The position numbers and the translations under genes were made by a program. DNA of 42,830 bases, taken from contig CAIYUY010000213.1 of NCBI GenBank assembly GCA_903929485.1, positions 1 through 42,830 on the forward strand, given 5' to 3'. The notes beneath the pieces are model-generated. The model was not told the DNA's origin and did no database searches. It was given only the letters and a program-made list of their open reading frames with translations. Below are positions 14,807 to 42,422 of the stretch, piece after piece (positions within the stretch are counted from its first letter, which is position 1; every line of letters starts with the position of its first letter). The stretch is from an uncultured Desulfuromonadales bacterium (GTDB lineage: Bacteria > Desulfobacterota > Desulfuromonadia > Geobacterales > CAIOGM01).

Positions 14807-14830
14807 ATTTTTACACAATCTCAACAATTA
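14807..14830 (+). promoter_or_regulatory. Candidate PHO box between GH3 gene and sixA
   Basis: ATCTCAACAATT (14818-14829) is identical to the sites before phoB and pstS, and a related 11-mer, TTTTACACAAT, precedes it. It overlaps the stop codon of the GH3 gene and lies about 70-83 bp upstream of the predicted sixA start of transcription, but on the opposite strand from its promoter. Confidence 0.5.
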
Positions 14831-20182: not shown

Positions 20183-20230
20183 CGCGGTTACAGCGCGGAT
20201 GTCGCGAAAAGTTTTAACATTTCACAGAAA

Positions 20231-20278
20231 TATCCAACCATCTCAACGTAATCTCAACAATTATCCTGTAGATATGAT
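20231..20278 (+). promoter_or_regulatory. Candidate PHO box and promoter of pstS
   Basis: Two direct 11-bp units, CTCAACGTAAT (20242-20252) and CTCAACAATTA (20253-20263), stand head to tail. A looser unit, TATCCAACCAT (20231-20241), precedes them. TATGAT (20273-20278) is a good -10 box. Seven conserved bases plus four AT-rich bases per unit is the arrangement of PhoB sites in other bacteria, with a different base sequence. Confidence 0.7.
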
Positions 20279-20312
20279 CGGACAAAACGAACCTACCAAG
20301 GAGACAAGAAAC

Positions 20313-21329
20313 ATGGTAAAAAAACTCGCAGCACTCCTGGCCGTCGGCCTTTGTGTCGCCACGGGAACGGCTTTCGCCGAGACGCTCATCAACGGAGCCG
20401 GCGCAACCTTCCCCTACCCGCTCTACTCCAAATGGTTCAACGAGTACGCCAAGATCGACAAAGAGGTTAAATTCAACTACCAGTCCATCGGCTCCGGTGG
20501 TGGGATCAAGCAGATTACCGCCCAGACCGTGGATTTCGGCGCCTCTGACAAGTTCCTTTCCGACGATGAGCTTAAAGGGGCTCCGGGCAAGCTTCTTCAT
20601 ATTCCCACGGTCATGGGGGCGGTGGTCGTCACCTACAACATCCCCGGCGCCCCCAAGGGCTTAAAGCTTCGTTCCGAGGATATCACCAACATCTTTCTGG
20701 GGAAGATCACCAAGTGGAATGATTCCCGCATCACCGACGACAATCCCGGCGTGAAATTGCCGGACAAGCCGATCATCGTTGTCCACCGTTCCGACGGGAG
20801 CGGCACCACCAGCATCTTTACCGACTACCTGAGCAATGTGAGCAAGGAGTGGCACGACAAGGTGGGGAAAGGGGCCTCGGTGAAGTGGCCGGTGGGGCTG
20901 GGGGGCAAGGGAAATGAAGGAGTTGCCGGTCAGCTCAAAACCACCGAAAACTCCCTGGGATACGTGGAGTTGGCCTACGCCGTGGAGAACAAGCTCCCCT
21001 ACGCCACCGTGATGAACAAGGAAGGTGCTTTTGTGGAGCCGCGGATCAACTCCATCACCGCGGCGGCCGCCGGGGCAGCCAAGCATATGCCCGCCGACTA
21101 CCGGATCTCCCTGGTGAATCAGCCGGGAAAGGATACCTACCCCATCGTCGGCTTTACCTGGCTTCTGGTCTATGAGCAGCAGAAGGATAAGGTCAAGGGG
21201 CAGAAACTGGTGGAATTCCTCAAGTGGAGTCTTCATAACGGCCAGAAGATGGCAGCGCCGCTTCTCTACGCGCCGCTTCCCGAGAATGTGTCCAAGATGG
21301 TGGAAAAGACCATCAAAGAGATCAAATAG
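20313..21329 (+). CDS. pstS: Phosphate ABC transporter, periplasmic binding protein
   Basis: The start at 20313 is fixed by AAGGAG nine bases upstream and a 22-residue signal peptide (MVKKLAALLAVGLCVATGTA, then FA); a longer upstream frame enters phoR and is not real. The mature protein opens with INGAGATFPYPLYSKWF, which holds phosphate-binding residues. FGASDKFLSDDEL and HRSDGSGTTSIFTDYL give the remaining binding-pocket residues (Ser, Asp, Arg, Thr). At 338 residues it is normal for PstS. It captures phosphate in the periplasm and delivers it to PstCA. It is the first gene after the PHO-box promoter; the pstC gene follows by five bases. Confidence 0.96.
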   Translation: MVKKLAALLAVGLCVATGTAFAETLINGAGATFPYPLYSKWFNEYAKIDKEVKFNYQSIGSGGGIKQITAQTVDFGASDKFLSDDELKGAPGKLLHIPTVMGAVVVTYNIPGAPKGLKLRSEDITNIFLGKITKWNDSRITDDNPGVKLPDKPIIVVHRSDGSGTTSIFTDYLSNVSKEWHDKVGKGASVKWPVGLGGKGNEGVAGQLKTTENSLGYVELAYAVENKLPYATVMNKEGAFVEPRINSITAAAAGAAKHMPADYRISLVNQPGKDTYPIVGFTWLLVYEQQKDKVKGQKLVEFLKWSLHNGQKMAAPLLYAPLPENVSKMVEKTIKEIK

Positions 21330-21334
21330 CAGCC

Positions 21335-22285
21335 ATGAGTGAACCGGTATCGTTGATCGACACGAGAGTCGTGAAGGGGGATCTCCTCTTCAAGTGGATT
21401 ATCTTCTCCCTGGCCGCCGCTGTCCTCCTGATCCTTCTGGTCATGGTGGTGGCAATGGTCCGGGAGAGCCTCCCCTCCATCAGGCAGTTCGGAGCGAAGT
21501 TCATCGTCGGCCGGGAGTGGGACGCGGTGAAGGGGGATTTCGGGGCGCTGGACTTTCTCTACGGTTCGGTGATCTCCTCGGTCCTGGCGCTACTGTTGGC
21601 CACCCCCCTAAGTGTGGGGGCGGCCCTCTTCATCACGGAGATCGCCCCCCGTCGGGTGGGAGAGATCATCGCACCGATCATCGAACTCCTGGCGGCCATT
21701 CCCAGCGTCATCTACGGCCTCTGGGGGGTGCTGGTCATGGCTCCCTGGCTTCAGCAGTCGATTCAGCCCTGGCTCATCGAGCATCTCGGCTTTCTCCCCT
21801 TTTTCCAGGGAGCCCCCTACGGGGTGAGCATGCTGGCGGCGGTCTTCATCCTGATGATCATGGTGATCCCCATCATCACCTCCATTACCAAGGAGGTGCT
21901 GATGGCGGTGCCGGTCTCCCAGAAAGAGGCGGCCTACGCCCTGGGGGCCACCCGGTGGGAGATGTTCCGGATGGCGCTCATCCCCTATGCCCGTTCCGGG
22001 GTTTTGGGGGCGGTGATCCTGGGATTGGGGAGGGCCATCGGCGAGACCATGGCGGTGACCATGGTCATCGGGAACACCCCGCAGATCTCCCTGTCGCTTC
22101 TGGCGCCGGGGTACACCATGCCCAGCGTTATCGCCAATGAGTTTGCCGAGACGACCTCCAAGCTCCACTCCTCGGCGCTCATGGAGATCGGTCTGATCCT
22201 TCTGGTGGTCACGCTCATTATCAACGCCCTGGCGCGTCTCCTCATCTGGAGCGTTACCCGTGGGGATACGGGGGCCCGGGCATGA
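21335..22285 (+). CDS. pstC: Phosphate ABC transporter permease PstC
   Basis: A 316-residue inner-membrane protein with about six transmembrane segments, the first at 27-49 (WIIFSLAAAVLLILLVMVVA). The cytoplasmic coupling (EAA) loop is visible in SQKEAAYALGATRWEMFRMA, followed by ALIPYARSGVLGA. With PstA it forms the channel for phosphate taken from PstS. No ribosome site stands clear of pstS, so translation is probably coupled to it. It overlaps pstA by 4 bp. Confidence 0.96.
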   Translation: MSEPVSLIDTRVVKGDLLFKWIIFSLAAAVLLILLVMVVAMVRESLPSIRQFGAKFIVGREWDAVKGDFGALDFLYGSVISSVLALLLATPLSVGAALFITEIAPRRVGEIIAPIIELLAAIPSVIYGLWGVLVMAPWLQQSIQPWLIEHLGFLPFFQGAPYGVSMLAAVFILMIMVIPIITSITKEVLMAVPVSQKEAAYALGATRWEMFRMALIPYARSGVLGAVILGLGRAIGETMAVTMVIGNTPQISLSLLAPGYTMPSVIANEFAETTSKLHSSALMEIGLILLVVTLIINALARLLIWSVTRGDTGARA

Positions 22286-23124
22286 TCGGTTACGACCTGC
22301 GACGAAACCTGACAAACAATTTCATGATGTGCCTCATGGTGGGGGCGGCCCTGGCCGTCATGGCCCCCTTGGGGATCATCTTTGTCCACATCCTCAAGAT
22401 GGGGGCCAGCTCACTGAGTCTGGATTTTTTCACCCAGATTCCCAAACCCACCGGCGAGAGCGGGGGGGGGATGGCCAACGGTCTGGCCGGCTCTGCCATG
22501 ATGATCGGCATGTCCTCCTGTCTGGGGCTCCCCGTGGGGATCCTGGGTGCGGTCTACCTCAATGAATTCGGGGGAAACCGTTTCGCCACGGCGGTTCGTT
22601 TCAGCGCCGACGTCCTGGCGGGAATCCCCTCCATTATTACCGGCATGGTGGCCTATACCTTGCTGGTGGTCCCCATGAAAGGTTTCTCCGCCCTGGCCGG
22701 GGCAGTCGCCCTGGCTCTCATCATGATTCCCATCGTGCTTCGGACCACCGAAGAGCAGTTAAAGATGGTCCCCGGCACCCTGCGGGAGGCATCCCTGGCG
22801 CTGGGTGTCCCCTGCTGGCGCACCAGTCTGAAGGTGACCCTGGTGAGCGCCCGGGCCGGAATCATCACCGGGGTGCTCCTCTCCATCGCCCGGGTCGCCG
22901 GAGAGACGGCGCCGCTTCTCTTCACCGCCCTGGGCAACCAGTTCTGGAGCAAGCGGCTCACCGAACCCATGGCCGCCATCCCGCTGCAGATTTTCAACTT
23001 CGCCATCTCTCCCTACGAAGACTGGCACAAACTGGCCTGGGCCGGGGCTTTGGTGCTGGTGGTGATCATGTTCACCCTGAATCTGACGGCCCGCTACTTC
23101 GGCAGAATCAAACATAACGGCTAA
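22282..23124 (+). CDS. pstA: Phosphate ABC transporter permease PstA
   Basis: A 280-residue permease with about six transmembrane segments, beginning NFMMCLMVGAALAVMAPLG. The EAA-type loop reads LREASLALGVPCWRTSLKVT, the coupling site for PstB. The ATG lies within the last codons of pstC (4-bp overlap), which indicates coupled translation. It is followed by an 88-bp spacer with tandem repeats before pstB. Confidence 0.96.
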   Translation: MIGYDLRRNLTNNFMMCLMVGAALAVMAPLGIIFVHILKMGASSLSLDFFTQIPKPTGESGGGMANGLAGSAMMIGMSSCLGLPVGILGAVYLNEFGGNRFATAVRFSADVLAGIPSIITGMVAYTLLVVPMKGFSALAGAVALALIMIPIVLRTTEEQLKMVPGTLREASLALGVPCWRTSLKVTLVSARAGIITGVLLSIARVAGETAPLLFTALGNQFWSKRLTEPMAAIPLQIFNFAISPYEDWHKLAWAGALVLVVIMFTLNLTARYFGRIKHNG

Positions 23125-23212
23125 AACGGTGAAAGGATAAAGGATAAAGGTTAAAAACCGGTCCCAAGTCCCCAGTCCCGGCTTTCCCAGTCCCGGCTTT
23201 TAAGAGGTTTTC
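23125..23212 (+). repeat. Tandem repeats in the pstA-pstB spacer
   Basis: A heptamer array, AAAGGAT, AAAGGAT, AAAGGTT (23132-23152), is followed by a perfect tandem duplication of the 15-mer CCCAGTCCCGGCTTT (23171-23185 and 23186-23200). The repeats look like slippage products in untranslated spacer DNA. Confidence 0.85.
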
Positions 23213-23971
<759 letters not shown>

Positions 23972-23976
23972 GGCTG

Positions 23977-24065
23977 TTTTAGGTTTTAGGTTTTAGGTTA
24001 AGCCCTAAAACCTAAAATTTAAAACTTGAATCCTGGATTCTGAATATTAAAACCTAAAACCTAGA
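23977..24065. repeat. Heptamer repeats with a perfect stem in the pstB-phoU spacer
   Basis: Three tandem TTTTAGG units (23977-23997) are followed by two CCTAAAA units (24004-24017). Two units on each side form a perfect 14-bp stem (23984-23997 with 24004-24017) around TTAAGC. Further copies, AAAACCTAAAACCTA, lie at about 24049-24063. No T-run follows, so it is not a typical terminator; it could protect or divide the mRNA ahead of phoU. Confidence 0.85.
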
Positions 24066-24089
24066 TTCTAAAACCGCTTCGAGGCATTC

Positions 24090-24764
24090 ATGTCAAGACA
24101 CTTGATGACGCAATTCGATACCGATCTGCAGGAAATACGCACCATGCTCCTGGAAATGGGGGGTAAGGTGGAGAAGATGATCACCGACGCCATGAAGTCG
24201 CTGGTGGAGCGGGACAGCCTGCTGGCGATGACCACCATTGACTACGACCACGAAATCAATCGACTGGAAGTGGAGATTGACGAGCGTTGCCTGGAAGTCC
24301 TTGCCCTGCGCCAACCCACGGCCCGGGATCTCCGGTTCGTCACCCTGGCGCTGAAGATCGTCACCGACCTGGAACGGATCGGCGACCAGTGCCGCAACAT
24401 CGCCAAACGGGCTCAAGAGCTGAACGAACTGCCGCCGCTCAAACCGTATATCGACCTTCCCCGAATGGCGAGCATCGCGGCGAACATGGTCACCGAAGCG
24501 CTGGACGCCTTTGTGCGCGGTGACGACCAACTGGCCTATGCCGTCTGTCGCCGCGACGACGAGGTTGATCTTCTCAACGAGCAGATTCAGCGGGAGCTCT
24601 TGACCTACATGATCGAGGATTCGGCGAGCATCACCAGGGGCATCAAGATCACCGCCATCGCCAAGTGCCTGGAGCGGGTGGCTGATCACGCCACCAACGT
24701 GGCGGAGATGGTCATTTTCATGGTCAAGGGAAAAGATATTCGTCACCTGGGATGTGACGCGTAA
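24090..24764 (+). CDS. phoU: Phosphate transport regulator PhoU
   Basis: A 224-residue all-helical protein with the two-fold PhoU repeat: MGGKVEKMITDAMKSLVERD with ERIGDQCRNIAKRA in the first half, and the mirrored ALDAFVRGDDQL with LERVADHATNVAEM in the second. The E/DxxxD clusters (ERIGD, ERVAD) bind metal ions. PhoU links the state of the Pst transporter to PhoR and represses the Pho regulon when phosphate is plentiful. It stands last in the classical cluster. CGAGG lies before the ATG. The following kinase gene overlaps its stop codon if the first start is used. Confidence 0.96.
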   Translation: MSRHLMTQFDTDLQEIRTMLLEMGGKVEKMITDAMKSLVERDSLLAMTTIDYDHEINRLEVEIDERCLEVLALRQPTARDLRFVTLALKIVTDLERIGDQCRNIAKRAQELNELPPLKPYIDLPRMASIAANMVTEALDAFVRGDDQLAYAVCRRDDEVDLLNEQIQRELLTYMIEDSASITRGIKITAIAKCLERVADHATNVAEMVIFMVKGKDIRHLGCDA

Positions 24765-28580: not shown

Positions 28581-29030
28581 TCAACGGCATGCCGCCGGAG
28601 GCTCGTTTATGAGAGCCCAGAAGATCCCCAGCTCGGCGACAGCGTCCATGAAACTGTGAAAATCCACGGGCTTCACCACATATGCGTTTACACCGATCTG
28701 ATAGCTTTCCGTAAGATCCCGCTCTTCCCTGGAGGAGGTAAGAACTACCACCGGTATTGATTTTAACGATTCCGTCGCCTTGATAATACGCAGGACTTCC
28801 AACCCATCCACCTTGGGAAGTTTGAGGTCAAGGAGGATGAGACCCGGATTATTACCGGAGCGACCGGTGTAGACGCCTTGATGATTGACAAAATCAAGAG
28901 CCTGTTGACCATCCTTGACCCATTCCACCTCATTTGCCAGCCCTTTTCTCCCCAAGGCCTTCAAGGTAAGTTCGGCATCGTTGGCGCTGTCTTCAACCAG
29001 AAGAATTCTTTTCAATTTGACTTCCATCAT
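28581..29030 (-). CDS. Single-domain response regulator, Rcp1-like
   Basis: The 149-residue protein is one receiver domain. Glu13 and Asp14 bind metal, Asp68 in [13 protein letters not shown] accepts phosphate, Thr98 in VVVLTSS and Lys120 in VVKPVDF complete the site. The Rcp1-type loop ahead of the phosphorylation site ([15 protein letters not shown]) marks the subfamily that works with phytochrome-like and HAMP-type kinases. There is no output domain. It overlaps the kinase gene by 4 bp and is likely its cognate partner. A terminator follows. Confidence 0.9.
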
Positions 29031-30463
29031 GTTTGCTCTCCTCTATTGGGCAAAGAAAAGTAAAACGTGGCCCCTTCATTCACAGCTCCCTCGGCCCATG
29101 TCCGGCCGCCGTGACGCTGAATAATGCGCCGCACATTGGCCAAACCTACTCCGGTCCCTTCGAACTCTTCAACGGTGTGCAGGCGTTGAAACAGCCCGAA
29201 AAGTTTATCCAGATACCTCATATCAAAGCCGACTCCATTGTCGGCGACAGAACAGATAGTTTCGTCGGAGGTAATGGACTGTCGGCAACTGATCGTTATC
29301 CTGATGGGATTCCTGTCACGACTGTACTTGAGGGCGTTACCCATGAGATTGACCAGAACCTGGCGCAGCATTGCCGGATCGCCGTAAACCTCCGCCAAAT
29401 TGTCCGTCTCCCAGATGATAGTTTTACCTTCCATTTCATTTTGCAGTTCATTGCGCGCCTCGGCCACCAACTTCCACATGCTGACGGACGTTTGCATCAT
29501 TTCCGTCCGCCCCATGCGGGAGAATGACAGAAGGTCATCAATGAGAGTACCCATTTTCTTGGCGGCGTCGGCAATGACCTGCAAGTAGCGCCGGCTGGTT
29601 TCATTCAGCGAGCTGGTGTCCTCTTCCCTCAGTAATTCGATAAAACCATTTACATGTCGCAGCGGCGCCCGCAGGTCATGAGAAATCGAATAACTGAACG
29701 CTTCAAGTTCATTGTTGGCCGCTTCCAGCCGATTCATATACATCCGCACCTTGTCGGTCATGGTATTGAGCATCAGGGAGAGCTCGGCAAGCTCATCATC
29801 CCCCCGGCACGGAATCCGGTGTTCCAGGTCGCCTTCGGCAATAATCGCAATACCCGCTTGTATGGACGCCAGACGCCTGCGCAATAACCTATTGACCAAC
29901 ATGGAATTAAGAACAGTGGTCAGAACCAACACCGCGACAAAAATTGAGCTGAGGAGTACTGTTTTGTTGTAATTGGAGTTGGCGACTTTTCCGGTTAATT
30001 CATCCAACTGCGCGGCTTCCGAGTAAAGGGCGGAAGCAAGAAGGATATTCTGGCTGATGAGTCTCTGCTCCAGCTCATCATTGCCGGCGCCACTCTTTGA
30101 TTCTTCCTTCAATTTGACAATTTGCAAAAAAGTGCCGCGAGTGGCGTTAAAACTATTCCGGATCCTGATCAGAGCGTCCCTTTCGCCCTTTTCCTTGAAA
30201 CGTTCATTGGCCAGATCAAGCAGGCTCTCCAGTACTGCGGTTTTATTGAGCCACTGTTGTTTTATCCGTTCCGCGCCATAGATCAGATATTGATCCCGAA
30301 GAACCGTACGCTCGAAAATAGCGGCCACAATCTGGTCGGCAAGAAGATTTTGGCGAATGGAGAGCCCATACAGGGTGAATAACCAGATCAGGACCGGGAT
30401 AAAAAGAGACAGCACCCCCAGTGAAATGTATGAGCTTAAGGCGAGCCTGGTAGCTATGCGCAT
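29027..30463 (-). CDS. Membrane sensor histidine kinase with HAMP domain
   Basis: The 478-residue kinase has two membrane segments (about 12-35 and 167-190) around a mainly helical periplasmic domain of about 130 residues, a HAMP domain (188-242), a coiled segment, HisKA with His262 in [10 protein letters not shown], and HATPase (about 360-475; [26 protein letters not shown]). It lies four bases after the binding-protein gene, so its periplasmic domain may sense that protein rather than a free ligand. It is followed with a 4-bp overlap by the receiver gene. The ligand is unknown. Confidence 0.9.
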
Positions 30464-30467
30464 GACG

Positions 30468-31454
30468 TTACCTGGAAATCAGTGTAACTGCTTCGGGTTT
30501 CACTCCCCTCAGACTATCTACATGAATATAATTGAGATAATTCGGCATTTTGGCGCCTTCGACCGGATGGCCATTCATTGCCCAGCGACTCTCGTCTTCC
30601 AGAACCAGCAGGAGGAGCTGATCAAGGCTTACCCGGAAGTTAAATTCACTCCAGAGTTCGGCTATGAGCGACTTGTCTATCCGTAGTTCCGTGGCGACGA
30701 ACGCCTGCGCCTCGTCAGGGTGTTCGGCCGCGAATTTTTCAGCCTTGAGCAGAGCTCGCACTACCTGCCTGATTACCATCGGATTTTTTTGCACATATTC
30801 CCGTCCGGCGACAAGATTGAATATTTCCGTATAAATTTGCTTGTCTATGAACGTGACCCCCCTGCTCCCCAGACGCTTGCGAATGTTGGCAAGGTAGTAA
30901 TTCCAGGTGACTGCCGCGTCTATTTTTCCGGAAATAAGGGCATTTTGCATCTCTTCGGGTTTCAAGGCTACCAGCTTCATATCCCCGCGCAGAATAGCGT
31001 TGGCGGTAAGGAAGTTGTCCATGTAGAATTCGCTGGAAGTACCGGGTGTATATCCGACTACTTTCCCCTTCAGGTCATGGGGAACCACCACTCCCCGATC
31101 TCTTCCGGCAATAACCCCGTTGTTTTTGTTGGAGCTGAATATGCTGGCGACAATAACCGGCTTTTCTCCCGTTAAAACGGCGAACACCACCGGGGTATCC
31201 GCCGCGGTAGCCAGATCGGCCCTTCCCGCCAGCATCGAAGCAAGAGCCGCCCTGCCGGTGGCATGCATGAGCGGCTGCATCCGGATTCCTTCCTGGGTAA
31301 AATATCCTTTCGCCATGGCGAGATGAACAAGGGTAGCTTCCGTTTGTGAAGTAAGAGCCAGAGTGACTTTTCGCACCGGTTCTTTATTTCGGGAGGAGTT
31401 CCGACACCCCATGAGAACCCCGATAAACATGAGTATGATCATAAATTTAAGCAT
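30468..31454 (-). CDS. Periplasmic-binding lipoprotein, NMT1/SsuA type
   Basis: The start at 31454 follows GGGGAG. A lipoprotein signal ends at GVLMGC (Cys17). The 328-residue protein has the fold and motifs of nitrate/taurine/thiamine-precursor binding proteins: ALTSQTEATLVHLAMAKGYF then TQEGI, GRAALASMLAGRADLATAAD, and KGKVVGYTPGTSSEF. Such proteins normally deliver substrates to an ABC permease and ATPase, but no such genes are nearby. The gene stands between two kinases, so it probably presents a ligand to the membrane kinase at 29027. Ligand type cannot be told from the sequence. Confidence 0.85.
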   Translation of the reverse strand: MLKFMIILMFIGVLMGCRNSSRNKEPVRKVTLALTSQTEATLVHLAMAKGYFTQEGIRMQPLMHATGRAALASMLAGRADLATAADTPVVFAVLTGEKPVIVASIFSSNKNNGVIAGRDRGVVVPHDLKGKVVGYTPGTSSEFYMDNFLTANAILRGDMKLVALKPEEMQNALISGKIDAAVTWNYYLANIRKRLGSRGVTFIDKQIYTEIFNLVAGREYVQKNPMVIRQVVRALLKAEKFAAEHPDEAQAFVATELRIDKSLIAELWSEFNFRVSLDQLLLLVLEDESRWAMNGHPVEGAKMPNYLNYIHVDSLRGVKPEAVTLISR

Positions 31455-31470
31455 GTTTTGTCTCCCCTCG

Positions 31471-32637
31471 CTACACCTCGATACGAAACTCGGCGCCACC
31501 TTTGACATTGCGGGCGGTGAGGCGTCCGGCCATGTTTTGTTCAATGATAACCTTGGCCATATAGAGGCCGATACCGGTCCCTCTATCCGGACCACGGGTT
31601 GTGAAATAGGGATCAAAGATCTTCGGCAGAACATCCTCGGAAATACCGCCGCCATTGTCCCGGACATACAACACTGAACGTCCATTTTCCTCGGTAACGG
31701 TGATGGAGATGCAAGGATTGACGGCGCAACGCTCCATACAGGCATTACGGGCGTTACTTATAATATTGACCAGAGCCTGGGCGTACTCATTTTTGAAACC
31801 GAAGGCCGTCACGTCACTCTTTGTTTCAATTTCCAACCGGATCTCCTGGGACTTGATTGCCGGCGCCGTTAACGTCACCGCACTGTTGACGGCGGTGACG
31901 ATGCTGAACCTCTGTTTTTCTTTTTCTTCGTGAAAAAAATCGCTGAAATCATTAATAGTCTGAGACATCTGCCCAATAACTTCCATCGCCAGACGAATAT
32001 CACGGTGCAGCTGCATCATGGCGGCGGTATCGTAACCCAACTCCAGCTGAACATTCTGAATAATGAGCGCCACATTGTTCAGCGGATTACGCCACTGGTG
32101 AGCAATGTTACGGATCATCTCACCCATGGCCGCCAGTCGGCTCTGCTGAATCAGGAGCTGATCCTTTTGGCGTTGATCGGCGACAAGAGCGATGACACGC
32201 GCCTCCAGACTTTTGCGCAGTTGATCAAGCTCCTCATCCGCCTCTCGCCGACTGCGCCGGTTCTCGGCTTCGGCAATCTCCCGTTTGATGGCCGGAGCCA
32301 GCCGGGCAAGATTATTTTTCAGGATATAGTCATGCGCCCCCGCTCTCATGGCTGCCACGGCGGTTTCTTCGCCCATTTTTCCGGACACAATAATGAAAGG
32401 GATGTCCATCCGGCTCTCTTTCAGCAGTTGCAGCGCTTCCAGGCCACCAAAATGAGGCATGACAAAATCGGAGATGACGACATCCCACCTCTGTCGGCAC
32501 AAGGCCGCCTGCATCGCCTGGGGTGTCTCGACGCGCACGGCTTGGAGTTCATAGCCGTTTACCGAAAGGTTTCGCTCCAGAAGTTCCGCATCAAGTTCCG
32601 AGTCCTCAACAATAAGTACACGCAGCGGTTGCGGCAT
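31471..32637 (-). CDS. Receiver-histidine kinase hybrid (no membrane segment)
   Basis: The 388-residue protein has an N-terminal receiver with Asp57 (VVISDFVMP) and Lys107 (YILKNN), a helical linker (about 120-165, rich in Glu/Arg), then a kinase core with His180 in NIAHQWRNPLNN and HATPase motifs NIISNARNAC, DNGGGI and GTGIGLYMAK. This HQWRNPLN type of phosphorylation motif is common in soluble kinases of deltaproteobacteria. It is likely controlled by phosphorylation of its receiver. The ATG at 32637 follows GGAGCAGGA; a GTG at 32661 has none. It lies 33 bases after the giant gene. Confidence 0.88.
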   Translation of the reverse strand: MPQPLRVLIVEDSELDAELLERNLSVNGYELQAVRVETPQAMQAALCRQRWDVVISDFVMPHFGGLEALQLLKESRMDIPFIIVSGKMGEETAVAAMRAGAHDYILKNNLARLAPAIKREIAEAENRRSRREADEELDQLRKSLEARVIALVADQRQKDQLLIQQSRLAAMGEMIRNIAHQWRNPLNNVALIIQNVQLELGYDTAAMMQLHRDIRLAMEVIGQMSQTINDFSDFFHEEKEKQRFSIVTAVNSAVTLTAPAIKSQEIRLEIETKSDVTAFGFKNEYAQALVNIISNARNACMERCAVNPCISITVTEENGRSVLYVRDNGGGISEDVLPKIFDPYFTTRGPDRGTGIGLYMAKVIIEQNMAGRLTARNVKGGAEFRIEV

Positions 32638-32670
32638 AATCCTGCTCCATTGTTTAAGCACAAGAAAAAA

Positions 32671-35600
32671 TTAATACGCCTCAATCTCAACGATCCGGCT
32701 ATAACCTCCCAGGGAGGCGGAGACCAGCACTCTGATCCGGTCCGTCGTCACCACCGGAAAGGTGATCTTCCGCCAGACAAAATGGTTTCCGGTAACGCCG
32801 CCACCCGATACGGTTATCCAGCCCGACCCATTCCAATACTGAACATCGAAGTTGGTGACACCGTACTTCGTAAACATCTGAAGAGCAGTCGGCTCTTGTG
32901 CCGTCGTATAAAGATCCTGTAACGTGAAGAGGTCAATTTCGCTTATACTCTTTTGCCCGTTGAAGGTAATCTGCACCCAATCCGGGTAGAGATTGTTCGT
33001 GGCGTCGTTCCATCCTCCGCCCGCGCCCCATTTGAGCCCCTTCCGGTCACCATTGTTCACCGCCGCAATCGGATAGCTGCTCACATTAAAGGTCGACGAT
33101 GCCGTTGCTATTCCACCGTTGGTCGCCAGGGCTACGTTCAACCTGGCTGGAGGGACAAACAGAATATTTCTCCGGGCAATGGTCTTGTTCGCGTTGCTCT
33201 CAGTCACTGAAACCTCGAAGGGGTAACTTTTTTTATCGGTGAGTGTCACTGCCTGGTTGAATGCGCCGTTGGTGACAACCGGTGTGTAGGCGGAGACACC
33301 ATCGCTCACACCAATGGTAACCGGAGACACTGCGTCATCGATGGTCCCGCCGATATTCTGGGCCGGATTGCTTGTCACAAAATCCTGAACCGGAGTAATC
33401 GCGACCGTCGGTCCCTGGTGACTGGATACGACGGTCCGCTTGAGGCTGTTTCTTTTGCCCTGGAGATCGCTCGCGGTGATCTCCAGAGTATTCAAACCCG
33501 CGGCCAAGTTGACGTTCGCGGAAAATGAGCCGTTGACTATGTCCGCCTGCTGTGAGCCTGTGCCATTTACCGATACGGCAACCGTGGCGTTGAGGTCGGA
33601 GATACTGCCTGCTACGGTGACGAAGCTCTTGTTTGCACTGCTGTTGTCCGACGGAGCAGTGACGATCAGTCCCGGCAACAACGGATCGTAACTAACGGTT
33701 CGACGCTCCACCGTCTGATTATCGGCCGTGTCGGCGGCAATGGCGGTGATAGTGGTTGTTCCCACCGGGAGAAGCAGCGGCCAGGTGAAACTCCCATCGG
33801 CATTGACCGGAACGTTTGAGCCGTTGATCGTGAATGTTCTGATCCCCGCGGCATCAGTGACGACGCCGGCTACGTTGAGAACGGCGGAAGAGGTGACGGC
33901 GCCGTCGGAGAGAGTTGAGAGAATAAGAGTGGGAGGCAGGCTGTAGTTAACAGATACATTGATCGTGGTTATATTAGTGACCTGATCCATAGCTGAAATG
34001 GTGAAGGTATTAGCTCCCTGTGCAAGGTTTGAAACTGTACACGACCACTTCCCGGCAGCAATTATTGACTGACCTATGGAAGCACCTTTATCCGTGGATA
34101 CATTTACATTCGCTCCCGCGTCTACGGTTCCACTCAAAGTCAGACTATTGGAACAAGTAGAACCTGGAACACTGTTTACCGTCAGTTTTGGAGCAACCGT
34201 ATCAATACTGAATACTTTTTCATCAAAACCGGTTTTACCGTTGCCGGTTGCTTCAACCCGGATAGTGTGACTGCCGTCACCAAGCTGATCGAGAGCAGCA
34301 CCGGAAACCTTGTTAACAACAACGCCGTCAACTTTAACGGCCACGGTTCCCGAGCTGACACTGTAGTTAAGAACCGGCTTATTGTTGTTGATTGCACCTA
34401 GAGGAGAAACAATTGAAACCGTTGGCGCGGGAATCAGGTTAAAGGTCGCCGTTACAGAATCCGCGCCGTCAATAGAGACGGAACAAACGCCTGTCCCGGA
34501 GCATAGGCCTGACCAACCGGCAAATATCGAGGTAGTCGTAGTTGCGACTGGCGTTAATACAATTGAAGCGCCGGCATTAAATGACGCCGAACAACTGCCG
34601 GCAGAACAGGATATACCACTTGGAGAACCGGTTACGGAACCGGCGCCGTTTCCGGAGATTGTTACTGTCAGTGGATAGGGAAGTATTGCCGGCTTCGGTG
34701 TTGGGATCTGGGCGGTCGTCCCATCACCTAACTGGCCAGAGCTATTCCCCCCCCATACCCAGACACCACCGTTGCTTTTCATTGCCATACTATGAGCCGC
34801 ACCGGCAGCAATTGCGATTACCCCCTCAATGCCATTTACACGTACAAGAGAACCTCTGTCCGATGTCGGTTCAACACCCAGTTGATTATTTCTGTTGATC
34901 CCCCATGCCCAGACAGTGCCATCGCTCTTTAACGCCAAGACATGGGATGAGCCGGCCCCTGACGCCACCGCCACTACCCCGGTAAGACCAATCACCTGAA
35001 CCGGTGCGATTCGGTCTATCGCAGTTCCGTCGCCAAGTTGACTATTATAGTTGAGACCCCAAGCCCAAACCGTACCGTCAGCCCTGCTTGCTATTGAAAA
35101 ACATGATCCGGCTGCCATGGCTGTAACTCCACTTAAACCGAAGACCTGAACCGGTATATTTTTACTCACATACGTCAGGTCACCCAATTGATCACAGCCG
35201 TTGTTACCCCATGCCCAGACAGTGCCGTCACGCTTTAAAGCAAGCGTATGATTCTCTCCGGCAACGATGGCTGTTACATCGCTCAAGCCAAAGAGCTGAA
35301 CAGGAAGCATATATTGTGTATAATTACCGCTACCCAACTGCCCAAAATCATTTCGCCCCCAAGCCCATACGGATCCATCGCGTTTCAACGCCGCGGCATG
35401 GCTAAAGCCTGCTGTAACCGCCACTACATCAGTGAGCCCGATTACTTGCACCGGCGCATTCTGGTTATTAGTGCTGTTTATACCCAGTTGTCCGTAATTG
35501 TTGTACCCCCACGTCCAAACCGAACCGTCTCCTTTCAGTGCAACGGTAAAGTTGGGGCCGCCGACAGCGCTGACAACGGCTCCGATTAAATCTACCTGTT

Positions 35601-38600
35601 TCGGAGTAAGACTGTTTACTTGGCCGCCGTCACCCAGTTGACCAAAACTGTTGTTTCCCCAAGCCCAGAGCGTACCATTGCTCTTAACAGCAAGAGTATG
35701 ACTTTCTCCAGCTCCTATTCTCGGTTGAACCTGAACAGCATCAGAAATCACCTCCGACGCAAAACCGACACTCACACTGCAATTATCCGTGACGTGATCG
35801 ATTTTATAGGTTGCCTTGTCAACGGACAGGTTACCGCCACACCCGGTAACGGAAGCAAGCTGGTAGCTGTTGGCCGGAGTGAGGGTGAAGCTTAGAGCAT
35901 CTCCGGCTGCAACTATCAGGGCGGATGACGGAGTTATACTCCCCTTGCCGCCCATGAGCAGAGGTGTTACCAGAAGGCTCTGGCTCAGGCTAAAAGCCAT
36001 TGATTTTGGTATAATGCAACTGTCGGTTGTACCAACACCCAGCCTGCCTACGGCATTATCACCCCACGACAACAGCGTACCGTCGCTCTTCAGCGCCAAA
36101 TTGTGAACTGCTCCTGTAGCAAACGCCACCACATTGGCAAGACCACCTACACGCACAGGAACAACCCTGTCTATATCCGATCCATCACCTAACTGACGAT
36201 TTTGGTTATAACCCCAAGCCCAGACAGCGCCGTCTGATGTCAAAGCCAGTGAATGCGAGGAAGCAGGACCAGTCGCTATTGCTATCACTCCGTCAAGCCC
36301 ACTCACCTGAACCGGAATCACTCGATTAGTAGTGGCGCCGTCACCCAGCATTCCATAACCACTGTTGAAATACGTACTGCTATTGCGCCCCCACGACCAT
36401 ACCGTTCCATCACCTTTAAGAGCGAGAGAAAATCCGGAACCGGCTGCGATGGAAGTTACTCCAATTAAACCATAAACCTGGGTTGGTTTTGAACTATTGG
36501 TATTGATAGTAGTCATGTTTCCCAATTGCCCCATGTCGTTAACACCCCACGCCCACACGGTTCCGTCACGTTTAAGCGCCAAACTATGATCGCTTCCGGC
36601 GGCGATGGACACCACATCACCTAGGGTGGAAACAGGAACAGGTAGCAATGACTGGGTTATTGTTCCATTACCCAGCTGACCGACATTATTGTAGCCCCAG
36701 GCCCACACCGAGCCGTCATTTTTCAACGCCAATGAATGGTTAATTCCAGCGGAAATATCCGCAACCCCGCCAAACTCGGCAAGTCCGGTTATATCTAGTA
36801 CCGCTACGGGAGAGAAACCAGCCACAACGCTGTTATTACCCAATTGACCATTCGTATTATTCCCCCAAGACCTCACTTTCCCGTTACTCATTAAGGCCAA
36901 GGTATGACTGGAGCCGGCAACAACACTGGAAACGCCGGTGAGCCCACTGACCTGGGACGGACTAAGCTGATAACTTAAAATGTTTCCATTTCCAAGCTGA
37001 CCAAAAGAATTACCACCCCAGGTCCGGACTGTGCCGTTGCCCTTCAGGGCGACACTATGATCAACGCCCGCGGCTATCTTCTTCTGAACAATCACCACAG
37101 TGGGCTGTTGCAACGTGTCAAAAACTGCGTTAACCGTGCAGTCACCTATTACTGAACTGATTGTGTAGCTGTTGCCGCTCAAACTTCCACCGCAACCGTT
37201 AACAGAAGCGATCTTATACTTACTGTTCGCAGGAGTAAGTGTAAAAATAATGGGGCTGCCGGTCGCCACGGTCTGAACAGTTGCCGGACTGATAGTTCCG
37301 CCACTGCCGGCGACAACCGGCGTTACGAGCAAGCTCAAGTTCTGACTGATAGCCGATGATTCCGGCCTGAGAGAACTGTTTATAGTCCCATCACCCAACT
37401 GGCCAAAGGTATTCCCCCCCCAAGACCACACCGAGCCGTCTCTTTTCATAGCCAAGCTATGATTAGTACCGGCAGCAATCGCAATGACATCATTCAAACC
37501 ATAAACCTGAACCGGAATCGACCACGAGGTAATACTCCCGTCGCCACACTGTCCGGAATTATTGCTCCCCCAAGCCCACACTGTACCGTCATTCTTTAAC
37601 GCCAGGGCATGACTGGAACCGGCGCTTGAAGCAATGGCAGTTACCCCGGTTAGTCCAAAAACCTGCCCCGGAATAGTCTGGGCTTGGTATGATGTGCCGC
37701 CATTTCCCAGAAGAGTGCTTGCACCCCAAGCCCAGACCGTGCCGTCATTCTTAAGCGCAAACGTATTAACGCCTCCTGCTGCTATGGCCGTAACACCGCC
37801 AAGAGCTGTTGTCTGCACGGGAAGAAGTTGCTCAGCTAAGCCTCCATTTCCCAACTGGCCATTACTATTATTCCCCCATGCCCAGACCGTTCCATCATTT
37901 TTCAATGCTACGGAATGAAAATTGCCGGCAGCAACACGGATAATTTTTGCACCATTAAGGCTAACTACGTTTGTTGCGGTGTTCAGAATAGCAGGTCTTG
38001 GGGAGACGCCAAGTTTACCGTCGTAGCCATATCCCCAAGCCCAGACGGTGCCGTCACGCTTCAAAGCTACAACATGATTAACACCTGCTGAAATATCCGC
38101 GACACCGGTAAATGTGGCGGAGGTAGTCGCCGTAAGCACGCTAACCGGACTATTACTATGAGCGTAAGTCTTATTACCCAGTTGACCGTCGAAGCCGTAC
38201 CCCCAAGTCCGGACATCGCCATTGTCCCGCAAGGCAACAGTAAAATTGGCGCCTCCGGCAACACTGACATAAGTTCCGGTGAGTCCGGAGGTGTTGTTCA
38301 CAGGTACCGGAAACGATTTAGCGACATTGGAACTGTCTCCAAGCTGGCCGTAGAGGTTGTTACCCCAAGTCCAGGCCATGCCATCGCTCTTCAGGGCAAT
38401 GCCATGGTTTCCACCGGCGGCAAGCCTTCTTTGGACAACTGGAACAACTTCCGGCAGCAGCGATGCAAAGCTGATATTCACGGCACAGTTCCCGGTTACC
38501 GAACCGGTCGTGTAAACAGCGCCGCTCAAAGAACCGCCGCAACCGGTTGCGGAAAATATCCGGTGATTGACATCCGCTGTAATGTTAAAGGTTACCACAC

Positions 38601-41600
38601 TACCCGTAGCTACTGTCCGGGCAGTCGCCGGAGTGATGCTCCCCCCGATGTCTGCACTCGGCGTTACCAACAGGTTCTGATTAAGATTGATAGTCGTGGT
38701 TCCAGGTATGATACGCCTTTCATTCGTCCCGGTTCCCATCTGTCCATAACCGTTATCTCCCCACGCCCATACCGTGCCATCACCCCTTAGCGCCAAACTA
38801 TGAGATTGGCCGGCAGCAATTGCCATGACATCAGCAAAGCCTTTTACAAGGACGGGAATGCTCCGGCTTGTTGCAGTTCCGGTTCCATCGCCCAATTGAT
38901 TATAGTTGTTATAACCCCATGCCCAGACGGTGCGATCCGACTTCAACGCAAGGGCATGAGAAGAGTCGGGACCAGCGGCAATCGCCGTCACACCGGCAAG
39001 ACCGTTCACCTGAACCGGTGCAATTCTGTTGATCGTGGCGCCATCACCAAGTTGACAGTTGCCATTGATGCCCCATGCCCAGACAGTGCCATCTCCCTTG
39101 AGAGCGACAGTAAATCCTGACCCGGCAGTTATGGCGGTAACACCATTAAGGCCATAAACCTGAACAGGAACCGGTTGCGCCAAGGTGCTCATATTCCCCA
39201 ACTGACCATTTCTATTGTCCCCAAAAGTCCAGACTGTACCATCGAGTTTCAAAGCTGCGCTGTGTTTATCTCCGGCAGCAATAGCAATCACATCGCTCAA
39301 GCGGGTTACCTTTACCGGTGTTTGACGCTGCCTGTTGCTCCCGTTTCCTAATTGACCCGAGCCGTTGTCACCCCATGCCCAAACAGTTCCGTCACTTTTT
39401 AGCGCCAGGGTATGACTGTTGCCGGCAGCAATAGCGATTACTCCGGTTAGACCGCTTACCTGATTTACAGTTTTCCGGGTATAGCCGCCATTACCCAACT
39501 GACCATAAGTGTTGTTACCCCATGTCCAGACCGTTCCATCATCCTTAAGAGCAACAGTATGATTCCCACCGCCAACAGCATTGACAACCACTCCGACAAG
39601 CATGTCACTATTATTTACTTGCTTCGGAGTGGGACTGTCGGAAACGCCTCCGTCACCAAGCTGACCATAACTATCGCTACCCCACGTCCAGACCGTCCCG
39701 TTACTTTTTACAGCTATACTGTGGTTGTCACCGGCCGCTATTCGTGGCAGGACCGCAGTGGCGGAAACCTTCAATGCCGCGAAGCTGACACTAACCGTGC
39801 AGTCTCCTGTAACAGAGGCAGTATTGTAGGTGCTTCCACTCAGACTCACGCCACATCCGGTTACTGAGGCGATCTTGTGATCGGAATCAGGAGTAACAGT
39901 TAATTGAACAATTTCGCCGGCAGCTACGCTCTGGACAACATTCGGACTGATGGTCCCGCCGGCGCCCCCCAAGAGTACCGGGGTTACGTGCAGGCTTTGA
40001 TTCAGGTTTAAGTCGATAACTTCCGGTATTATGGAACCGGTAGTCGAACCATCGCCCAGCTGCCCGGATGAATTAAATCCCCAGGACCAAACCAGACCAT
40101 CACTCTTTAGCGCCAAAGTATGATTCAACCCGGTGGCAATTGCCGTCACATCGGCAAGCCCCGTCAAAAGGACGGGAACATTCCTGTTAACAATAGTTCC
40201 ATCACCCAACTGATTATTATTATTCAGCCCCCAAGCCCATACCGTGCCGTCCGACTTTATCGCCAGGGCATGAGATGAGCTGGGGCCGGACGCTATACTT
40301 AGTACCCCACCGAGACCATTTACCTGGACCGGAGCAAACCGGCTGATCACAGTGCCGTCGCCTAACTGGCCTGAATTGTTGATGCCCCACGCCCAGACGG
40401 CGCCGTCCTTCCTGAGACCAAGAGAAAAACCGGCGCCCGCGGCAATAGCCGTAATACCGCTTAAGCCATGGACCTGAACCGGTCTCTGCTTCGAACTATT
40501 TGTCATATCGCCCAATTGGCCATTTTCGTTGCACCCCCACGACCAGACCGTTCCATCGGACTTCAGTGCACTACTGTGATTATCTCCGGCAGCAATGGCT
40601 ATAACATCATTTAAGTCGGAAACGGGAACAGGAGTTAATTGCTGCACCGTGGTTCCGTCACCAAGTTGTCCACGGCCATTGTTACCCCACGCCCAAACAG
40701 TGCCGTCACTCTTCAATGCCAGGGTATGACTATAGCCGGCAGCAATGGCCGATATCCCATTAAACCGGCTGAGCGCCCCGTCGACTCCACTGACCAGAAC
40801 CGATACCGGCGTAGTTCCCTGGATGGTAGTAGTATTACCCAGTTGACCATTACTGTTGTTACCCCAAGCACTGACGGTGCCATCACTCTTTAATGCCACG
40901 GTATGGAAAGAGCCTGCGGCGACTGATGTAACTCCGGAGAGGCTGATAATCCGGAGGGGCGTGTATTGGTTGTTAGAGGCGCCATTGCCCAACTGACCAT
41001 TGCTATTCATGCCCCAGGTCCAGACAGTTCCGTCCTGTTTCAAGATCACATTATGATTTTCACCAGATGCGATTTTTGCAGGAGTAGGAGGAGGCAGAGG
41101 CTGGTAAAAACTCCAGAGTGGCCCCACCGTAACAACGTTGTTACTATCCCGAGTATCCACTCTCCAGTAATAGGTGGTATTGTATTCCAGCTCCTTGGGC
41201 AAATATGAATTCCAGCCAACCGCCACGAGTGGCGGATTAGTCGTTGTGCCAAAATAGACATAAGAAACTACACTATCATTACTATCAGGGTCGGATACCG
41301 ACCAGGTCAGGGTGGCATTCGCGGTACTTCTGGCGCCGTTATTGGCGGGTGAAGGGTTAAAGGCAACATTGGGTGGATGATTCACAGGTGTGGTTGGAGA
41401 AAGGGTTTTTTTTATCAACCGGTTGCCCATATTATCGTACAAATAATTAACTGACGAACCATTATCATACTGAACTCTGGTGAGTCTAAGCATGACGTCA
41501 TATGAATAATTCATATTTTCAGCAAAGACAGGGACGCTATTAAAAAAAATGGCGGCCGGCACTACCAAACAGAATATGGCTAATAGATTTTTCCGTTTCA

Positions 41601-41601
41601 T
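32671..41601 (-). CDS. Giant secreted RCC1-repeat protein, five predicted propellers
   Basis: About 2,976 residues. The ATG at 41601 follows GAGG and begins a signal peptide (MKRKNLLAIFCLVV, ending near VFA); a GTG at 41613 adds four residues. Layout: a YD (RHS-type) repeat (YSYDVMLRLTRVQYD, YLYDNMGNR), a fibronectin-like domain, then five groups of exactly seven RCC1 repeats. Groups are separated by about 80-residue linkers with two cysteines (VTGCG and GDC), resembling InlB-type B repeats. A third cysteine-bearing repeat domain, several Ig-like domains, and a C-terminal discoidin (F5/8-C)-like domain (about the last 150 residues, from LNVALATNGGIATASS) follow. RCC1 repeats form seven-bladed propellers. 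No anchor or catalytic site is visible. Probably a surface or extracellular binding protein. Confidence 0.9.
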   Translation of the reverse strand: MKRKNLLAIFCLVVPAAIFFNSVPVFAENMNYSYDVMLRLTRVQYDNGSSVNYLYDNMGNRLIKKTLSPTTPVNHPPNVAFNPSPANNGARSTANATLTWSVSDPDSNDSVVSYVYFGTTTNPPLVAVGWNSYLPKELEYNTTYYWRVDTRDSNNVVTVGPLWSFYQPLPPPTPAKIASGENHNVILKQDGTVWTWGMNSNGQLGNGASNNQYTPLRIISLSGVTSVAAGSFHTVALKSDGTVSAWGNNSNGQLGNTTTIQGTTPVSVLVSGVDGALSRFNGISAIAAGYSHTLALKSDGTVWAWGNNGRGQLGDGTTVQQLTPVPVSDLNDVIAIAAGDNHSSALKSDGTVWSWGCNENGQLGDMTNSSKQRPVQVHGLSGITAIAAGAGFSLGLRKDGAVWAWGINNSGQLGDGTVISRFAPVQVNGLGGVLSIASGPSSSHALAIKSDGTVWAWGLNNNNQLGDGTIVNRNVPVLLTGLADVTAIATGLNHTLALKSDGLVWSWGFNSSGQLGDGSTTGSIIPEVIDLNLNQSLHVTPVLLGGAGGTISPNVVQSVAAGEIVQLTVTPDSDHKIASVTGCGVSLSGSTYNTASVTGDCTVSVSFAALKVSATAVLPRIAAGDNHSIAVKSNGTVWTWGSDSYGQLGDGGVSDSPTPKQVNNSDMLVGVVVNAVGGGNHTVALKDDGTVWTWGNNTYGQLGNGGYTRKTVNQVSGLTGVIAIAAGNSHTLALKSDGTVWAWGDNGSGQLGNGSNRQRQTPVKVTRLSDVIAIAAGDKHSAALKLDGTVWTFGDNRNGQLGNMSTLAQPVPVQVYGLNGVTAITAGSGFTVALKGDGTVWAWGINGNCQLGDGATINRIAPVQVNGLAGVTAIAAGPDSSHALALKSDRTVWAWGYNNYNQLGDGTGTATSRSIPVLVKGFADVMAIAAGQSHSLALRGDGTVWAWGDNGYGQMGTGTNERRIIPGTTTINLNQNLLVTPSADIGGSITPATARTVATGSVVTFNITADVNHRIFSATGCGGSLSGAVYTTGSVTGNCAVNISFASLLPEVVPVVQRRLAAGGNHGIALKSDGMAWTWGNNLYGQLGDSSNVAKSFPVPVNNTSGLTGTYVSVAGGANFTVALRDNGDVRTWGYGFDGQLGNKTYAHSNSPVSVLTATTSATFTGVADISAGVNHVVALKRDGTVWAWGYGYDGKLGVSPRPAILNTATNVVSLNGAKIIRVAAGNFHSVALKNDGTVWAWGNNSNGQLGNGGLAEQLLPVQTTALGGVTAIAAGGVNTFALKNDGTVWAWGASTLLGNGGTSYQAQTIPGQVFGLTGVTAIASSAGSSHALALKNDGTVWAWGSNNSGQCGDGSITSWSIPVQVYGLNDVIAIAAGTNHSLAMKRDGSVWSWGGNTFGQLGDGTINSSLRPESSAISQNLSLLVTPVVAGSGGTISPATVQTVATGSPIIFTLTPANSKYKIASVNGCGGSLSGNSYTISSVIGDCTVNAVFDTLQQPTVVIVQKKIAAGVDHSVALKGNGTVRTWGGNSFGQLGNGNILSYQLSPSQVSGLTGVSSVVAGSSHTLALMSNGKVRSWGNNTNGQLGNNSVVAGFSPVAVLDITGLAEFGGVADISAGINHSLALKNDGSVWAWGYNNVGQLGNGTITQSLLPVPVSTLGDVVSIAAGSDHSLALKRDGTVWAWGVNDMGQLGNMTTINTNSSKPTQVYGLIGVTSIAAGSGFSLALKGDGTVWSWGRNSSTYFNSGYGMLGDGATTNRVIPVQVSGLDGVIAIATGPASSHSLALTSDGAVWAWGYNQNRQLGDGSDIDRVVPVRVGGLANVVAFATGAVHNLALKSDGTLLSWGDNAVGRLGVGTTDSCIIPKSMAFSLSQSLLVTPLLMGGKGSITPSSALIVAAGDALSFTLTPANSYQLASVTGCGGNLSVDKATYKIDHVTDNCSVSVGFASEVISDAVQVQPRIGAGESHTLAVKSNGTLWAWGNNSFGQLGDGGQVNSLTPKQVDLIGAVVSAVGGPNFTVALKGDGSVWTWGYNNYGQLGINSTNNQNAPVQVIGLTDVVAVTAGFSHAAALKRDGSVWAWGRNDFGQLGSGNYTQYMLPVQLFGLSDVTAIVAGENHTLALKRDGTVWAWGNNGCDQLGDLTYVSKNIPVQVFGLSGVTAMAAGSCFSIASRADGTVWAWGLNYNSQLGDGTAIDRIAPVQVIGLTGVVAVASGAGSSHVLALKSDGTVWAWGINRNNQLGVEPTSDRGSLVRVNGIEGVIAIAAGAAHSMAMKSNGGVWVWGGNSSGQLGDGTTAQIPTPKPAILPYPLTVTISGNGAGSVTGSPSGISCSAGSCSASFNAGASIVLTPVATTTTSIFAGWSGLCSGTGVCSVSIDGADSVTATFNLIPAPTVSIVSPLGAINNNKPVLNYSVSSGTVAVKVDGVVVNKVSGAALDQLGDGSHTIRVEATGNGKTGFDEKVFSIDTVAPKLTVNSVPGSTCSNSLTLSGTVDAGANVNVSTDKGASIGQSIIAAGKWSCTVSNLAQGANTFTISAMDQVTNITTINVSVNYSLPPTLILSTLSDGAVTSSAVLNVAGVVTDAAGIRTFTINGSNVPVNADGSFTWPLLLPVGTTTITAIAADTADNQTVERRTVSYDPLLPGLIVTAPSDNSSANKSFVTVAGSISDLNATVAVSVNGTGSQQADIVNGSFSANVNLAAGLNTLEITASDLQGKRNSLKRTVVSSHQGPTVAITPVQDFVTSNPAQNIGGTIDDAVSPVTIGVSDGVSAYTPVVTNGAFNQAVTLTDKKSYPFEVSVTESNANKTIARRNILFVPPARLNVALATNGGIATASSTFNVSSYPIAAVNNGDRKGLKWGAGGGWNDATNNLYPDWVQITFNGQKSISEIDLFTLQDLYTTAQEPTALQMFTKYGVTNFDVQYWNGSGWITVSGGGVTGNHFVWRKITFPVVTTDRIRVLVSASLGGYSRIVEIEAY
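34681..41076 (-). repeat. Five-fold RCC1 propeller repeat, about 1.3-kb period
   Basis: Propeller groups lie at about 40001-41076, 38680-39747, 37340-38430, 35980-37083 and 34681-35724 (minus-strand order). Each contains seven blades of about 50 residues with core GTVWAWGNNxxGQLGDGT. Start-to-start distances are about 1,330, 1,317, 1,347 and 1,359 bp. Blade-specific features recur in every group: blade 6 has an inserted SSH (AGPSSSHALA), and blade 5 lacks the His of AGxxH (mostly GFS/GFT). Groups therefore arose by copying whole propellers, not single blades. Confidence 0.9.
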
Positions 41602-41611
41602 ATGAGACCTC

Positions 41612-41621
41612 ACTGTACAGT
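41612..41621. promoter_or_regulatory. Short palindrome in the RCC1 gene leader
   Basis: ACTGTACAGT is a perfect 10-bp palindrome 11 bases before the ATG at 41601. A direct repeat CGATTCCAC also occurs twice in the leader (about 41632-41685). It could be an operator, but such a short site may be chance. Confidence 0.25.
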
Positions 41622-41741: not shown

Positions 41742-42422
41742 TTACTTGACCCTCGTGTCCCATGATGTATGAATCAACACATTATTACTACCTTCAAGCT
41801 TTGAAGGCTTGTGTCCACTAACCTTATAAATGCTATTTTGACTATTTACCCAAATCCTATCGCCTCCACGTTCTTGAAAGTCTGATGGCGTTTTCCCTTC
41901 TATAAATATCTGCCAAACATGTACATTTAATTGGTGTCTAGCTATGTTTTTCGAAAAACATACAGTAAGTCCGTCATCACGATAGACGCAATCAGAATTA
42001 GATTTTGAATGAAGCCATGCGACTGCTTCTTTAATAGTGTCAAAATGCTGCTGACCTTCAGCAACAACACCACGCTTAATCACATTAAGACCCATCCAAT
42101 GGAACCCTGGTCCAGGATAGTATAGACCCAGACTTCCGTACCACCTATCTGTCCTAGGCCACATAACTACCGATCTTGTTGCCCCATCCCATGAATAATA
42201 TCTCTTTAACCCCCTTCCAGATTTTATTGAAATTTTCCCTTCGGGAGTTGTTGCCTCTATCATCGAATCGGGCGGCATAACAATTTCATTGTTGACCGGT
42301 ACCAGTGGATCACCCTTTATCATATTATTAGCAAGCTCTATAAAACCGCTTCCAGTATTGGTTAATATTAAAAAATATGCCAATAGAATAAGTGCTGCCG
42401 CTGAAAGAATAATTTTTTTCAT
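41742..42422 (-). CDS. Unknown membrane-anchored protein, 226 aa
   Basis: One N-terminal hydrophobic segment (about 4-24, IILSAAALILLAYFLILTN) could be an anchor or signal. The rest is globular with many aromatic residues (SWDGATRSVVMWPRTDRWYG, YYPGPGFHWMG) and a possible cysteine pair (SDCVYRDDGLTVCFS). I recognise no family. The gene is AT-rich compared with the region to its left and lacks a clear ribosome site. It lies 140 bp upstream of the giant gene in the same direction, so it may be its partner, but the spacing suggests a separate promoter. Confidence 0.6.
   Translation of the reverse strand: MKKIILSAAALILLAYFLILTNTGSGFIELANNMIKGDPLVPVNNEIVMPPDSMIEATTPEGKISIKSGRGLKRYYSWDGATRSVVMWPRTDRWYGSLGLYYPGPGFHWMGLNVIKRGVVAEGQQHFDTIKEAVAWLHSKSNSDCVYRDDGLTVCFSKNIARHQLNVHVWQIFIEGKTPSDFQERGGDRIWVNSQNSIYKVSGHKPSKLEGSNNVLIHTSWDTRVK

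Follow-up and report, generated by a model that had tools for sequence, protein, structure and literature searches.

The window analysed here is a stretch of 42,830 nucleotides, positions 1 to 42,830 of the forward strand of contig CAIYUY010000213.1 (assembly GCA_903929485.1), from an uncultured Desulfuromonadales bacterium that is probably a relative of Geobacter, Geobacteraceae being among its named relatives. Its reverse strand carries a very long open reading frame in which five sets of RCC1 repeats alternate with linkers and are followed by Ig-like and discoidin-like domains (Table 1). Although the frame can be counted from a GTG, translation more likely begins four codons further in, at the ATG at 41601, since the putative signal peptide starts there, and the protein is apparently secreted. 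Downstream on the same strand lie genes for a response-regulator/histidine kinase hybrid, which starts only about 10 bases past the stop of the RCC1 gene, an NMT1/THI5-like binding protein and a HAMP histidine kinase. Elsewhere in the window, reading by eye revealed PhoB/PhoR-like genes with a phosphate operon and a GH3-like gene.

Table 1. Coordinates of the RCC1 gene, its predicted domains and other features of the window
Feature	Coordinates	Strand	Basis or remark
Whole gene	32671..41613	-	2980-aa ORF counted from GTG
Signal peptide (MKRKNLL...VFA)	41521..41601	-	By eye: positively charged start, then a hydrophobic core, VFA at the end
Two YD (RHS-type) repeat units	41398..41514	-	By eye (YSYD...RLT...YLYD...GNRL); no Pfam match
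Probable fibronectin III/Ig-like domain	41098..41388	-	Motif reading; no Pfam match
Propeller 1 (RCC1 units 1-7)	39994..41079	-	AlphaFold model and UVR8 match
Linker 1, InlB-B-repeat-like (PF18998), Cys pair	39760..39993	-	Pfam and linker alignment
Propeller 2 (units 8-14)	38671..39756	-	AlphaFold model, residues 446-807 of which match HERC2 RLD1
Linker 2, Cys pair	38443..38670	-	Linker alignment
Propeller 3 (units 15-21), most divergent	37330..38433	-	Residues 4-371 of the model match the propellers of Kti13 and RPGR
Linker 3, Cys pair	37096..37329	-	Linker alignment
Propeller 4 (units 22-28)	35980..37083	-	UVR8 Z 56 over 350 residues
Linker 4, Cys pair	35737..35979	-	Linker alignment
Propeller 5 (units 29-35)	34678..35724	-	Pfam and motif scan, sequence only
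B-repeat-like domain following propeller 5, distinct from linkers 1-4	34429..34677	-	Alignment and by eye
Ig-like region (Glucodextran_B, Big_13/Big_6-like)	33184..34428	-	Three PF09136 stretches (E 1.1e-28)
C-terminal discoidin-like domain (F5/8 type C)	32683..33108	-	PF00754
226-aa gene upstream	41742..42422	-	No Pfam match
Response-regulator/histidine kinase hybrid, NMT1/THI5-like binding protein, HAMP histidine kinase	29027..32661	-	
PhoB/PhoR-like genes and pst/phoU-type phosphate operon	17742..24764	+	By eye
GH3-like gene	14828..16405		By eye

The protein scores 1845.7 bits against PF25390 (RCC1-like domain; cut-off 150) and has no NCBIfam match. In a scan restricted to the C-terminal 184 aa, the terminal discoidin-like domain reaches 32.2 bits, above the PF00754 cut-off of 28.2; in a longer tail it scores 24.9 bits, under the cut-off. 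Within the frame, the Pfam scan found 35 stretches of PF00415, and a motif scan likewise located 35 units spaced 49-59 residues apart, save for four gaps of 132-135 residues that follow units 7, 14, 21 and 28. The outcome, five sets of seven with no remainder, is the arrangement that a preliminary description had counted from the sequence, and its coordinates fit as well, unit 1 starting near 41091 and unit 35 ending near 34678. The blade peculiarities it listed were recovered: the usual His of blade 5 is replaced across the five sets by F, F, N, F and F; blade 6 carries a two-residue insert ending in SSH in every set; an elongated blade 2 is confined to sets 1, 3 and 4 (spacing of 59, 56 and 56 against about 50); and all four linkers contain a Cys pair. 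Two irregularities on which that description was silent also emerged in blade 5, namely the loss of the usual GQLG spacing in set 3 and a seven-residue insert in set 4. The frame of the unit is near-invariant (G, A, DG, W, WG, QLG, P), and its loop positions are highly variable (AGxxH, WGxNxx, GDGTxxxxxxP).

Do the sets fold as independent rings? We modelled two joined pairs with their linkers in AlphaFold2, obtaining a mean pLDDT of 90.9 and a pTM of 0.51 for sets 1-2 (42-row alignment), and 89.4 and 0.53 for sets 3-4. Comparison with solved structures aligns a complete RCC1-type propeller to each of four stretches, residues 5-366 and 446-807 in the model of sets 1-2 and residues 4-371 and 454-821 in that of sets 3-4, the best match being UVR8 (Z 57 over 353 residues, rmsd 1.6 A, for propeller 1); BLIP-II matches with Z 29 and 38% identity over the aligned part. 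The structure alignments indicate that propellers 1-4 are separate, closed, seven-bladed rings; seven repeats per propeller are thus given by the models for these four and by sequence only for propeller 5. Pairing of blades across set boundaries, the outcome that would have spoken against the proposed arrangement, is not seen in either model. The five-propeller rod envisaged in the preliminary description fares less well: the separate closed propellers are borne out in both modelled pairs, but the rod is not supported, because the pTM of 0.51-0.53, beside a pLDDT near 90, does not define where the rings sit with respect to one another. The predicted architecture is rather one of beads on a string.

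The resemblance among the 35 units follows the propeller rather than the neighbouring blade. Units occupying the same position in different sets share a mean identity of 0.535, as opposed to 0.457 for other units, and identity within one set (0.457) is no higher than this background. Shuffling positions within sets yields 0.468 +/- 0.006, with the observed value reached in none of 20,000 trials; the true register is the best among 2,401 cyclic registers, and identity rises to peaks between units that lie 7, 14 and 21 places apart. On the blade tree, the position label requires 10 changes, fewer than in any of 200 shuffles (mean 24.4), whereas the set label requires 26, many forks being unresolved because the alignment offers only 51 columns for 35 rows. 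The repeat tree suggested earlier as a check thus groups blades by propeller position and not by neighbourhood. A tree built from 75 propellers unites the five of the window on one branch, with an SH-aLRT of 93 that comes from a quick method and lies below the starred level. Their shared marks are rare elsewhere: counted by alignment column, 4 of the 189 propellers from elsewhere contain an insert like the one in blade 6, of different sequence, and the His at the blade-5 site is kept in 150 of the 189. Clustering by position, the single branch and the rarity of the marks uphold the earlier proposal that a whole propeller-linker unit was copied repeatedly; the single branch together with the shared marks suggests that an ancestor already bearing the marks probably gave rise to the five by duplication of entire propellers together with their linkers.

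Judged by their divergence, these duplications are old, not recent. The sets are 52-61% identical at the DNA level and the propeller copies 45-57% identical; residues shared between copies use identical codons only slightly more often than expected from codon usage, and synonymous divergence is near-saturated. Such DNA identity and codon sharing make an assembly artefact unlikely, and on these grounds both an artefact and recent copying were rejected.

The uniqueness hinted at in the preliminary description, which knew of no described protein with this architecture, is not supported, given that proteins of 14, 21 and 28 units are widespread, that HERC1 and HERC2 are known and that a second protein with five sets exists. 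In a census we applied a unit profile built from the window to ORFs from 80 named loci and regions of related genomes, retaining complete ORFs with at least six units (n = 107) and counting as one the two half units that end a circularly permuted ring. The search for multiples of seven, also proposed earlier, was productive: 101 of the 107 ORFs qualify, 53 with 7 units, 36 with 14, 5 with 21, 6 with 28 and one, that of the window, with 35. The loci had been picked for their likeness to a full propeller, a choice that may enrich for complete propellers while leaving the number of units per protein free. Most totals that miss a multiple of seven by one can be traced to weak units or to half units terminating circularly permuted rings. 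No examined ORF from 141 same-order genomes goes beyond 28 units; within the genus, the RCC1 proteins examined contain no more than two propellers each, and the genome itself encodes one further two-propeller and one single-propeller protein. The second five-set protein belongs to a betaproteobacterial MAG (JACPTK010000054.1; L112:6557-19435, + strand), where an open-ended ORF has longer linkers of other sequence, with inter-set gaps of 114-213 residues and one of 710. The protein of the window therefore appears to be a long example of a widespread, little-described design.

Additional clues come from relatives within the genus. Some 160 residues at the C-terminal end reappear, with identities of about 57-83%, in other large proteins from the genus, and subtilase, PA14 plus fn3 or sortilin/BNR domains are present in some of these. 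The discoidin-like domain, which ends YSRI-EIEAY, is found on otherwise unrelated large proteins, often in 2-4 copies, and could be a widely used module for docking or sorting. Two-propeller relatives in the same genome and in two others of the genus adjoin conserved PEP-CTERM, lipoprotein-like, YjbH-family and Sel1-repeat genes (L142:3664-9818, L054:881-7020 and L047:11007-17095), the YjbH family being named exopolysaccharide biosynthesis protein in Pfam; one such relative, when scanned, also contained B-repeat, Ig-like and discoidin-like domains. The five-propeller gene itself is not adjacent to exopolysaccharide genes.

What could be the role of such a protein? We think it reasonably probable that it is a secreted multivalent binding protein, the best-supported reading, by analogy with BLIP-II and the HERC propellers and given the variable loops on a constant frame. 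The protein would leave the cytoplasm via its signal peptide and presumably pass beyond the inner membrane, carrying five independently folded RCC1/BLIP-II-type propellers as beads on B-repeat spacers, themselves probably pinned by a disulfide. The C-terminal Ig-like stalk and discoidin-like domain would dock on the cell envelope or on extracellular polysaccharide, while the loops would endow the propellers with five related but different binding faces, acquired through repeated in-gene duplication of the propeller-plus-linker unit and subsequent divergence. Consistent with this proposal are the unit and domain content, the predicted closed propellers, their one-branch origin with shared derived marks, the genus-wide C-terminal domain, the exopolysaccharide-type neighbours of the two-propeller relatives and the finding of RCC1 and F5/8C proteins in outer-membrane vesicles of Myxococcus (PMC4158809). 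Against it count the lack of exopolysaccharide neighbours at the gene itself, the failure to recognise any outer-membrane export or anchor signal in the protein and the variability of the loops, which may be drift. Our literature search found little on the function of secreted bacterial RCC1 proteins and nothing relevant on RCC1 in Geobacter. We offer only tentatively the more specific idea that RCC1 proteins with discoidin-like domains are multivalent matrix proteins of a YjbH/PEP-CTERM exopolysaccharide system, whose valency would change by gain and loss of whole propellers, the protein of the window being the five-headed extreme.

Binding might also be dispensable. Propellers without a ligand of their own could merely add length and bulk, holding the discoidin domain or the N-terminal part off the surface, and the regular propeller-linker repetition, along with the variation of relatives by whole propellers, is what length tuning would produce. 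We nevertheless find this rather unlikely: the low pTM beside high pLDDT gives no fixed orientation, propellers are costly beside the Ig-like domains that the protein already has, and the loop positions are diversified. Even less credence is due to a neutral ratchet of a duplicated module, in which five copies would persist without a selected role. The extent of divergence between the copies and the ceiling of two propellers in examined same-genus proteins agree with such a process, yet all 35 units retain their frame residues and reading frame despite the near-saturated synonymous divergence. The least plausible alternative, to which we give very little weight, makes the protein part of an RHS polymorphic-toxin locus, acting in presentation or delivery in connection with the upstream, immunity-type 226-aa gene. 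That gene has relatives (56-78% identity) directly behind RHS genes in all three other genomes possessing it, there are two YD units at the N terminus, and the repeats described for Sec-exported polymorphic toxins include beta-propellers (PMC3482391). However, the protein ends not in a toxin domain but in a discoidin-like domain common to non-RHS proteins; beyond the YD units read by eye it has no Pfam match to an RHS or toxin domain; the window shows no RHS core; and no RCC1 gene was seen beside the three RHS genes, the C-terminal parts of which resemble, by eye, cysteine-rich phospholipase A2. With no RHS gene visible before the contig end, the 226-aa gene is probably an orphan immunity-type gene here; being linked elsewhere to RHS and not to RCC1 genes, it says little about RCC1 function and was discarded as a clue.

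The gene extends in-gene copying from single blades to what are probably whole propellers in a bacterium, and the census reveals RCC1 copy number to be counted in sevens across phyla. Proteins of one to five rings provide a natural series for questions of valency and binding, and a concrete functional hypothesis follows from the shared module at the C terminus and from the exopolysaccharide-type genes next to the relatives in the genus.

Repeat, fold and ring size are those of the RCC1/BLIP-II superfamily (BLIP-II, RCC1, UVR8, HERC RLDs), of which BLIP-II is a secreted binder (PMC9218822); what sets the protein of the window apart is the occurrence of five rings in one apparently secreted chain, without ligase or photoreceptor features. 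A UV photoreceptor was rejected, as the UVR8-type chromophore Trp (GWRHT-type motif) is absent from the xx of AGxxH in all 35 units, and an RCC1-type Ran exchange role is unlikely given the bacterial host and the signal peptide. Human HERC1 and HERC2 also unite several RCC1 propellers in one giant protein, three in each, proposed to engage different partners (PMC10501995). They are, however, eukaryotic ubiquitin ligases with HECT, a domain for which the Pfam scan of the 2980-aa protein gave no match, whereas here five near-regularly spaced propellers follow a putative signal peptide. Also comparable are the often large two- to four-propeller RCC1 proteins of the same order, Myxococcota, Planctomycetota, Bacillota and other bacteria, whose totals are likewise multiples of seven; these have 14-28 units and frequently no linker, as opposed to 35 units and four homologous linkers. 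The WD40 tandem propeller WRAP, with 14 blades in two propellers (PMC9218822), similarly draws several rings from one repeat run. The known route of propeller amplification, that of the WD40 tandem propellers, starts from single blades (PMC9218822), whereas the unit copied in the five-propeller gene would be the propeller itself.
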